Positions 1 to 63,160 of a stretch of 64,000 bases of DNA are shown piece by piece. The notes beneath the pieces are model-generated. The model worked only from the letters and a program-made list of their open reading frames with translations, did not search any database and had not been told where the DNA came from. Source of the DNA: Paratrimastix pyriformis (taxonomy: Eukaryota > Preaxostyla > Paratrimastigidae); NCBI GenBank assembly GCA_027972325.1, contig JAPMOS010000021.1:397501-461500 (forward strand). The letters are read 5' to 3'. Position 1 is the stretch's first letter. The number at the start of each line of letters is the position of its first letter. The position numbers were made by a program, and so were the translations under genes.

Positions 1-2251
1 GGATGGCATCGAGGAGGGGCGCGCCCATGGTGGTGGTCAGGATGGGGTCCGCCTGGAGCCGCAGGACAACACCGTGGGCGCCCGGCTTGACGGCGATCTG
101 GGGTTGGGAGACATGGGTGGGTGGATGCGAGGGGATGATGATGATGATGGTGAAGATGGTGGTGATGGTGATGGTGATGGTGATGATGATGATGATGATG
201 ATGATGATGATGATGATGATGATGATGATGATGATGATGATGATGATGATGATGATGATGATTGGATGATGATGATGATTGGATGATGATGACGATGATG
301 ACAGGATGATGATGATGATGATGATGATGATGATGATGGTGGTGGTGGTGATGATGATGATGACAGGATGATGATGATGATGATGATGATGATGGTGGTG
401 GTGGTGGTGGTGGTGGTGGTGGTGATGATGATGATGATGATGGTGATGGTGATGATGATCGGATGATGATGACGATTGGATGATGATGATGATGATGATG
501 ATGATGATGACTGGATGATGATGACTGGATGATGATGACTGGATGATGATGTTGGATGATGATGATTGGATGATGATGATTGGATGGTGACGATGATCGG
601 ATGGTGACGATGATCGGATGCTGATGATGAATGGATGATGGATGTATGTGTCAGGTGTGTATGTGTCAGGTATGTGTCCCATGACGGACGGTGTCCGGTA
701 TGTGTCAGCGTGTGTGTGTGTGTCAGTGTGTCAGGTGTGTGTGTCAGGTATGTATCACATGACGGACATCATGACGATGAGTGTCAGTGCGATGTCAGGT
801 ATGTGTCAGGTGTGTCACAGGCATGTCGGGAGCGGCCGCCACACAACAAACATGACAGACGTAATGACGGTGGGGTCGTAGCGTCCCGCCCCCGGCGACC
901 GCGCACCCGCACTGACACCAACCGGCATCCGCGGGGCATGGAGGAGCCGTGGCGGCAGGTGCTGATGCTTCGGGCGGGATGGCTGGCGCGGCGGGGCAGG
1001 CGGGACAGCTGAAGCAGAGCTGGGTGTGCATGGGAAGCGGGTAGTGGCGCAGGCTGATCCCCGCGAGGGCATCTGGGCCGGGGGGGAGGAGGAGGAGGAG
1101 GAGGAGGAGGTGATGGATGATGATGGATGATGATGATGATTGCTGATGAGGATTGTATGAGGATGATCGGATGATGCAGATCGGATAATGATGATGGTTG
1201 AATGAGGATGATGATGGTCGAATGATGATGGTGATTGGGATGATGATTGGATGCTCATGGTGATGATGATTTCATGATGATGATGATGATTGGATGATGA
1301 TTGGATGATGATGATGATGATGATGATGATGATTGGATGATGATGACTGGATGATGATGATTGGATGATGATGATGATGAGGATGATGATGATGATGATT
1401 GGATGATGATGACTGGATGATGATGATGATGATGATGACTGGATGATGATGATTGGATGATGATGATGATGATGAGGATGATGATGATGATGATTGGATG
1501 ATGATGACTGGATGATGACTGGATGATGATGATGATGATGATGATGATGATGATCGGATGATGATGGGCGTGGGCGTGGGCAGGCGGAACGGTCGGGGGC
1601 GGGACGGACGGCAGGTGGCGAGGGCGCGGCGGATGTTGGCCGCCAGGACGAGATGCTGACACACTTGCATAATCTCCGACGGGTGCGCCCTGCGGATGGG
1701 CAGATGGGCAGGAGGTGGATGACGAACAGCACAGACAGCACAGCCAGCACAGACAGCACAGACAGCACAGACACAGAGAGACAGACAGCACAGACAGACA
1801 GACACAGCCAACACGATCATCATCAAACAACAACAACATCCTCCTGCTCTTCCTGCTCCTCCTGCTCCTCCTCCTCCTGCCCCTCCTGCTCCTGCTCCTG
1901 CTCCTCCTCCACATCCTCCTCCTCCTCCTCCTCCATCCTCACAGTTTGCCCACGAACGACTCTCCCACGAAGGGGTCTGCCCTGATGATGGCATCTACGA
2001 ACTGTGCCTGTCCCGATGGCTGCCCTGATGATGGCAGCATCTGGGAACTGTGATGGCGGCATCTGGGAACTGTGATGGCGGCATCTGGGAACTGTGATGG
2101 CGGCATCTGGGAACTGTGATGGCGGCATCTGTGGACCTGATGAGGAGGCAGCATGGGGCGGGGGCGGCCAAAGCGATGTTCTTCATGAAGAGCCCGGGCG
2201 GAAGGGCCCCAGCAGGCCCGGCGGACGAGCTGTCCGCGTACTCGGGCGCCG
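1..2251 (-). CDS. MED14: MED14 C-terminal exons (partial)
   Basis: The exons are 2137-2251 ([20 protein letters not shown]), 1943-2001 ([19 protein letters not shown]), 1610-1689 ([20 protein letters not shown]), 923-1072 ([18 protein letters not shown]) and 1-97 ([18 protein letters not shown], cut by the window edge). Phase joins 1943 to 1610 to 923. The junctions 2137/2001 and 923/97 do not fit in phase as drawn, so a small exon or another donor is missing. The 923-1072 exon matches the MED14 C-terminal motif that ends in a Pro-rich stretch, which supports the gene assignment. Confidence 0.65.

Positions 2252-63160: not shown

Follow-up and report, generated by a model that had tools for sequence, protein, structure and literature searches.

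Local duplication of exon edges within introns of a 64-kb region of the Paratrimastix pyriformis genome

Introns in a 64-kb stretch of Paratrimastix pyriformis DNA (hereafter the window, meaning the whole stretch that was analysed) carry direct copies of the edge of the adjacent exon together with its donor or acceptor. By BLAST, junction-spanning copies were found in 14/59 window introns vs. 1/371 introns elsewhere (Fisher p 3e-12), and interior-only duplicates in 10/59 vs. 6/371. The copies themselves, their tandem nature in several cases, their intact splice dinucleotides, the lack of any measurable preference for junctions, and the local enrichment were all observed directly. In our judgment the stretch is quite probably a regional hotspot of local tandem duplication, in which products that straddle an exon-intron junction are tolerated.

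Exon-edge copies in the window

Besides the window, the sample comprised twenty 10-kb stretches taken from contigs C1 and C2 and 25 loci that surround RRM domains, which makes 46 sequences and 343,740 bases in all. The 20 comparison stretches come from only two contigs and are therefore a limited sample; six loci (L001, L007, L009, L014, L016, and L031) were excluded because they overlap with others or with the window. A gene finder using a frame-specific Markov model, splice-site matrices, and the Viterbi algorithm was self-trained on the 46 sequences and predicted 641 introns. Many of the window exons make coherent proteins when read, and those calls that were plainly wrong (a tandem array, parts of an armadillo-repeat gene, and two exons set on a decoy) were corrected or excluded. 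Copies were sought inside introns, so that the real donor comes first and the real acceptor last in the window models by construction. The BLAST counts and the later sliding-window counts use a reduced set of 59 introns (65 minus 6 from the armadillo gene and miscalled exons), in which the RRM exon at 62 kb is modelled with a decoy acceptor as its start. The armadillo gene and the miscalled exons are still inside the permutation controls, the count at score ≥28, and the first sliding-window count; for the relaxed copy search (72 window introns), three miscalled exons were dropped, two exon boundaries were moved, and the armadillo gene was kept. The assembly, in which the window occupies C124:397501-461500, has 495 contigs (56,060,509 bases in total) and also served for the genome-wide unit searches.

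All 13 places in the window to which a preliminary description had drawn attention, read one by one, hold at least one direct copy of the adjacent exon edge with its splice site, although these copies are often imperfect, and some places hold additional truncated copies without a splice site. Self-comparison with simple repeats masked revealed many local direct repeats in the window, most of which, at these places, consist of an exon edge plus donor or acceptor.

On the donor side, two decoy copies on the minus strand (9717-9775 and 9546-9593) share GTCCGT and lie within the intron whose real donor is at 9842/9843; the gene finder had picked a decoy here, and the real exon was assigned by reading. 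On the plus strand, a decoy at 25201-25246 copies the donor after 25131 (GTCCGC in both), and another at 27369-27419 copies the exon end HTVAYFDHAKNFTMQ followed by GTCC at the donor after 27205, with 49/51 bases identical. At 31158-31392 (plus strand) a 58-bp unit, composed of the exon end GCCAATGAGAC, the donor GTCCGT, and the intron start, stands in four copies head to tail, which comprise the real donor after 31168 and three decoys. The decoy donor at 55161-55201 (plus strand; real donor after 55088) belongs to a duplicated unit of exon end plus about 50 bp of intron, the copied exon end and donor being followed by 52 bp of intron repeated exactly. On the minus strand, four decoy copies of the exon end GGCAAGCGG followed by GTCCGC, three of which keep GT, occupy 59931-60222 (real donor before 60324), and at 61393-61628 the exon end reading ...GNIPMAARE recurs three times, once as a full decoy donor (61393-61440) and twice in truncated form.

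On the acceptor side, the minus strand carries decoy acceptors with exon-start copies at 6784-6827 (real exon 6445-6524; 43/44 identical, GGGCAG kept), at 11989-12025 (real exon 11805-11907), beside which an additional 37-bp tandem pair lies at 11921-11991, and at 16370-16429, where 43 bp of exon start are included (real exon 16221-16264; 57/60 identical). The same strand has a decoy acceptor copy at 60487-60528 (real exon 60324-60416) and two copies of CTGCAG followed by TCAAGAAGCGGCACGACATTGAC at 62176-62290, the real one being at about 62142 and the AG having been judged by eye. The plus strand holds two decoy acceptor copies at 20201-20324 (real exon 20395-20514), three at 21210-21497 (real exon 21545-21598), two truncated exon-start copies at 25662-25846 (exon about 25960-26126, exact acceptor uncertain), and an older decoy with its pyrimidine tract at 28879-28943 (real exon 29054-29292; 51/62 identical). 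Two further decoys lie at 36017-36156 on this strand (36017-36048 and 36125-36156), upstream of an exon start near 36220 that the gene finder missed and that was set by reading. The largest case is a 63-bp array at 59270-59869 on the minus strand, derived from CAG plus the exon start CTGGACATTCACCGTG (real start 59247, by reading). This array is the ten-copy case of the preliminary description; it has about ten copies, five of which match CAG plus exon start. A single intron of the RRM gene (about 59248-60323) thus contains both this acceptor-derived array and the four exon-end copies.

Tandem duplication across an exon-intron boundary was found at 31158-31392, at 36017-36258, and at 55.1 kb, and the 14 introns with junction-spanning copies in the 59-intron set include both tandem and spaced ones. 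At 27.2, 16.3, and 9.6 kb little is shared beyond the exon edge, and microsatellite occupies the space between the copies, so that something beyond simple duplication is needed to explain their spacing.

The number of affected introns depends on the threshold. The relaxed search returned 47 copies in 26/72 predicted window introns, some of them weak and two in the miscalled armadillo-repeat gene; 29 of these cover the junction (in 18/72 introns) and 18 do not. At a Smith-Waterman score ≥28, edge copies were present in 18/65 introns, and the BLAST count given above was obtained with miscalled models removed and with the junction required to be spanned. The earlier statement that at least 20 introns are affected is therefore borne out at the relaxed threshold but not at the stricter ones, while its estimate of five genes is reasonable, since copies occur in four predicted models, and the model at 18.7-36.8 kb probably fuses two genes.

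The 29 junction-covering copies agree with the real edge at 1060/1147 aligned bases (92% mean identity); seven are identical to it and 22 differ, the most diverged example having 51/62 bases alike. GT is kept in 13/15 donor copies and AG in 14/14 acceptor copies (12 computed; two, with CTGCAG, read by eye), and the scores of the decoy sites are often near those of the real sites, with exceptions. One of the 29 (25603-25656) is without a splice dinucleotide and may be spurious.

Own introns at score ≥24 gave 13/436 donor and 20/436 acceptor matches, compared with 0-2/436 for permuted controls, in which edges were compared with other introns, and 0-1/436 for reverse-complement queries. Chance or low complexity as the source of the copies is ruled out by these controls together with the simple-repeat masking. 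Long-read assembly artefact is a highly improbable source: the probable source assembly was built from Nanopore reads polished with Nanopolish and Pilon, according to the account in PMC10703272, but 22/29 junction-covering copies differ from the real edge, many stand apart from it, several independent genes are hit, and most other stretches of the same assembly are free of copies.

The window has other features. A gene of many similar armadillo repeats (Pfam Arm; self-matches about 80%) lies at 37809-40181 on the minus strand, and a large many-exon gene resembling those of secreted or surface proteins at 22920-36594 on the plus strand. A homology search with one large glycoprotein-like exon of the latter found no protein homologue at E ≤ 0.001, and weaker relatives of another of its exons occur on contigs C446 and C485. 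A retroelement frame with aspartyl protease and chromo domain is found at 41622-42641 (minus strand); around it stands an 86-bp identical direct repeat (41399-41484 and 44097-44182), possibly short terminal repeats, and a plasmid search using this frame found nothing. A minisatellite of roughly 127 bp, with about five copies and a 254-bp higher-order periodicity, is located at 2604-3346.

Junctions, intron interiors, and the rest of the sample

The preliminary description held that introns grow by tandem duplication across the exon-intron junction, and it named as contrary evidence copies no more frequent at junctions than elsewhere. With regard to intron interiors, this is what we found. In the 59 window introns, 56/446 junction-spanning 30-base segments (12.6%, CI 6.1-19.4) are copied in the same intron vs. 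510/3305 intron-interior segments (15.4%, CI 3.8-26.4), a difference that is not significant (bootstrap CI -0.16 to +0.10). An earlier sliding count, with miscalled genes still in, had given 17-20% at junctions vs. 10.5% in the interior. Exon-only segments are copied into the intron at 8.3, 6.0, and 2.5% with growing distance from the junction, a fall that is expected of short duplicated segments.

These rates bear on the possibility of a junction-targeted process, such as breakage of exon edges linked to transcription or splicing, that would preferentially duplicate boundaries and be the driver of intron growth. Counted per intron, junction cases in the window are slightly above interior ones (14 vs. 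10 of 59), and one RRM-gene intron is mostly made of donor- and acceptor-derived arrays. The junction-to-interior ratio in the window, compared with that elsewhere (1 vs. 6), gives an odds ratio of 8.4 (p=0.08). However, there is no junction excess per unmasked 30-base segment, and in the sequences outside the window interior copies are the more frequent (227/15371 segments vs. 7/3240 at junctions). Junctions as special targets of duplication are not supported, and we regard such a process as improbable.

What distinguishes the window is its overall load of duplications. Independently of gene models, 11.1% of its unmasked bases are in local repeats (armadillo gene excluded) vs. a mean of 2.1% in the 20 other 10-kb stretches, where the maximum is 12.2% and the next highest value 6.1%. 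That maximum belongs to L032 (C1:50001-60000), a stretch with long introns, which is the only one of the 20 comparable to the window and holds one of the two junction-segment matches found outside it; further hotspots of this kind may lie dispersed through the genome. Outside the window, the edge search (score ≥28) gave 3/314 introns on C1 and C2 and 0/57 in the RRM loci. The relaxed search elsewhere yielded 30 mostly weak copies in 23/463 introns, ten of which cover the junction, five of these with GT or AG. Intron length alone is ruled out as the source of the enrichment, because among introns of ≥400 bp junction copies occur in 9/34 in the window vs. 0/65 elsewhere.

What remains of the original proposal is that local junction-crossing duplications, some of them plainly tandem, lengthen introns and leave intact-looking sites. 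Neither a preference for junctions nor a genome-wide rule (1 to 3 of 371 introns elsewhere) goes with it, and the 344-kb sample does not support the idea that introns of this genome generally grow in this way. The hotspot account leaves the hotness of the region unaccounted for, which we count against it. Codon bias is nothing unusual, GC3 being 0.78-0.90 in the five window gene models vs. a median of 0.87 in 60 others. Nearness to a contig end was likewise rejected: after the window, contig C124 (568,841 bp) continues for another 107 kb. L048 and L049, about 50 kb from contig ends, lend the idea no support either, as neither shows local repeats at the threshold applied.

Donor consensus and U1 snRNA

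The donor consensus of the 641 predicted introns is GTCYGY (GTCCGC 147, GTCTGT 65, GTCCGT 64, and GTCTGC 41). Without gene models, GTCTGT occurs at 1.9 times expectation and GTCCGC at 1.3 times, and GTAAGT is below expectation (9 vs. 15.5). Eight matches to U1 snRNA were obtained, one of them at C212:360323-360478, with 50.8-60.2 bits, below the family gathering score of 69.5, and all eight detected genes start with ATACAGACCTTGCTTGGCC. The canonical 5' end of U1 is ATACTTACC; in all eight it is replaced by ATACAGACC, and a search with one canonical-end U1 pattern gave no match. U1 position 6 is G, which pairs with +3 C (85% of predicted donors), and position 5 is A, which pairs with +4 T (27%) and not with the commoner +4 C. 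Judging from these sequences, U1 seems to have changed in concert with the 5' splice site, while the +4 C, the commonest base, is not accounted for by U1 pairing. Four copies of U6 were found, and the one read has the usual ACAGAGA.

In the related oxymonad Streblomastix, A, U, and G are given for donor positions +3 to +5 (PMC1501061). A survey of 240 yeasts and outgroups describes ACUUACC of U1 as invariant in all 236 genomes with U1 found and, as far as that account goes, raises a change at position 5 merely as a possibility (PMC10581693). Among the open-access papers listed by our literature search, there was no report of a changed U1 in P. pyriformis.

Origin and fate of the decoy sites

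The preliminary description knew of no standard name for the pattern. Tandem genomic duplication across an intron-exon boundary has in fact already been described: it is documented in a potato gene (PMC4974935), and such duplication is presented as a recognised route of intron gain (PMC3443670). Among the open-access papers listed by the literature search, none named anything that matches arrays of decoy exon edges. As reported for the potato gene, the duplicate is head to tail, covers the end of an intron and the start of an exon together with the parental splice site, and shows point differences, as copies in the window do (PMC4974935). Unlike in the window, that duplication yielded a new intron and extra exon sequence with RNA support, whereas the window copies, as far as sequence shows, stay within the existing intron, and they occur in many introns of a single region, in some of them several times over. 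This suggests that existing introns have merely been lengthened, with no new intron formed. Internal gene duplication of the AGGT type (Gao and Lynch, 2009; Hellsten et al., 2011, both via PMC3443670) likewise gives intron sequence and splice sites by tandem duplication within a gene, but that model, as outlined there, duplicates exonic AGGT into new sites, whereas pre-existing donors and acceptors are copied in the window. Introner elements are also repeated sequences tied to introns and splice sites, but are described as copies in many genes genome-wide (PMC9860276), whereas two window units searched against the whole genome matched their own neighbourhood only. Stwintrons likewise have several splice sites within one intervening sequence; in the published description their internal intron interrupts the donor, branch point, or acceptor of the external one (PMC8469720), while the window repeats whole exon edges.

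Under the hotspot reading, minisatellites, microsatellites, and units of roughly 20-130 bp would be duplicated, probably by slippage or unequal exchange, with little regard for exon-intron junctions. Duplications inside exons would be purged by selection, while those internal to an intron or straddling a junction could persist as long as the outermost donor and acceptor stay in use. A straddling duplication would give the intron a second exon edge with its splice site, after which the copies may be spread apart or multiplied by slippage and by growth of microsatellites. The range of the copies, from identical to 51/62 bases alike, is expected of such a continuing and decaying process. Under exon definition, recognition of an edge is poor when no partner site faces it across a short exon. 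We infer that the outermost sites are the spliced ones and that exon-defined splicing would render the decoys harmless; use of the outermost sites, if confirmed by RNA, could be explained by the poor recognition of unpartnered edges.

Alternatively, the copies may be functional, serving as alternative exon ends, backup sites, or recursive splice points under selection, to which we give little credence. The splice dinucleotides are nearly always intact and decoy scores often approach the real ones; however, at 92% mean identity unused decoys would mostly retain GT or AG regardless. Differences in the exon part, tallied over the 29 junction-covering copies and 754 exon-aligned bases (armadillo gene excluded, seven differences at 9.7 kb unscored), are 30 synonymous to 24 non-synonymous. 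This is above a rough, not computed, estimate of about 25-30% synonymous for one freely drifting copy, but synonymous change in the real exon alone raises that share (to about 40%, on the same rough basis), and copies within one array share changes, so that we do not read the ratio as proof of constraint. In addition, the number of bases added by decoy use would be divisible by three in only 9/29 cases, and the reading frame would shift in 20/29, about what chance would give (~1/3 expected), and the CAG motif is lost in about half the copies of one array.

A further reading, which we put forward tentatively and consider rather unlikely, is that in a part of this genome junction-spanning tandem duplication is a self-feeding form of intron growth: exon-defined splicing would pass over unpartnered decoys, full-strength decoy donors and acceptors would accumulate as a result, arrays would breed further copies, and some introns, such as that of the RRM gene at 59248-60323, would come to consist mostly of their own exon edges. 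If so, such introns would be a reservoir for the recruitment of new exon ends.

The finding does not demonstrate a new general mechanism of intron growth. The region does display duplicated exon edges at many stages of decay. We predict that the first donor and the last acceptor are used, as exon definition would lead one to expect more readily than a scan for the first acceptor; should RNA show that splicing bypasses the decoys, these introns would be a natural experiment on how the spliceosome chooses between near-identical sites.
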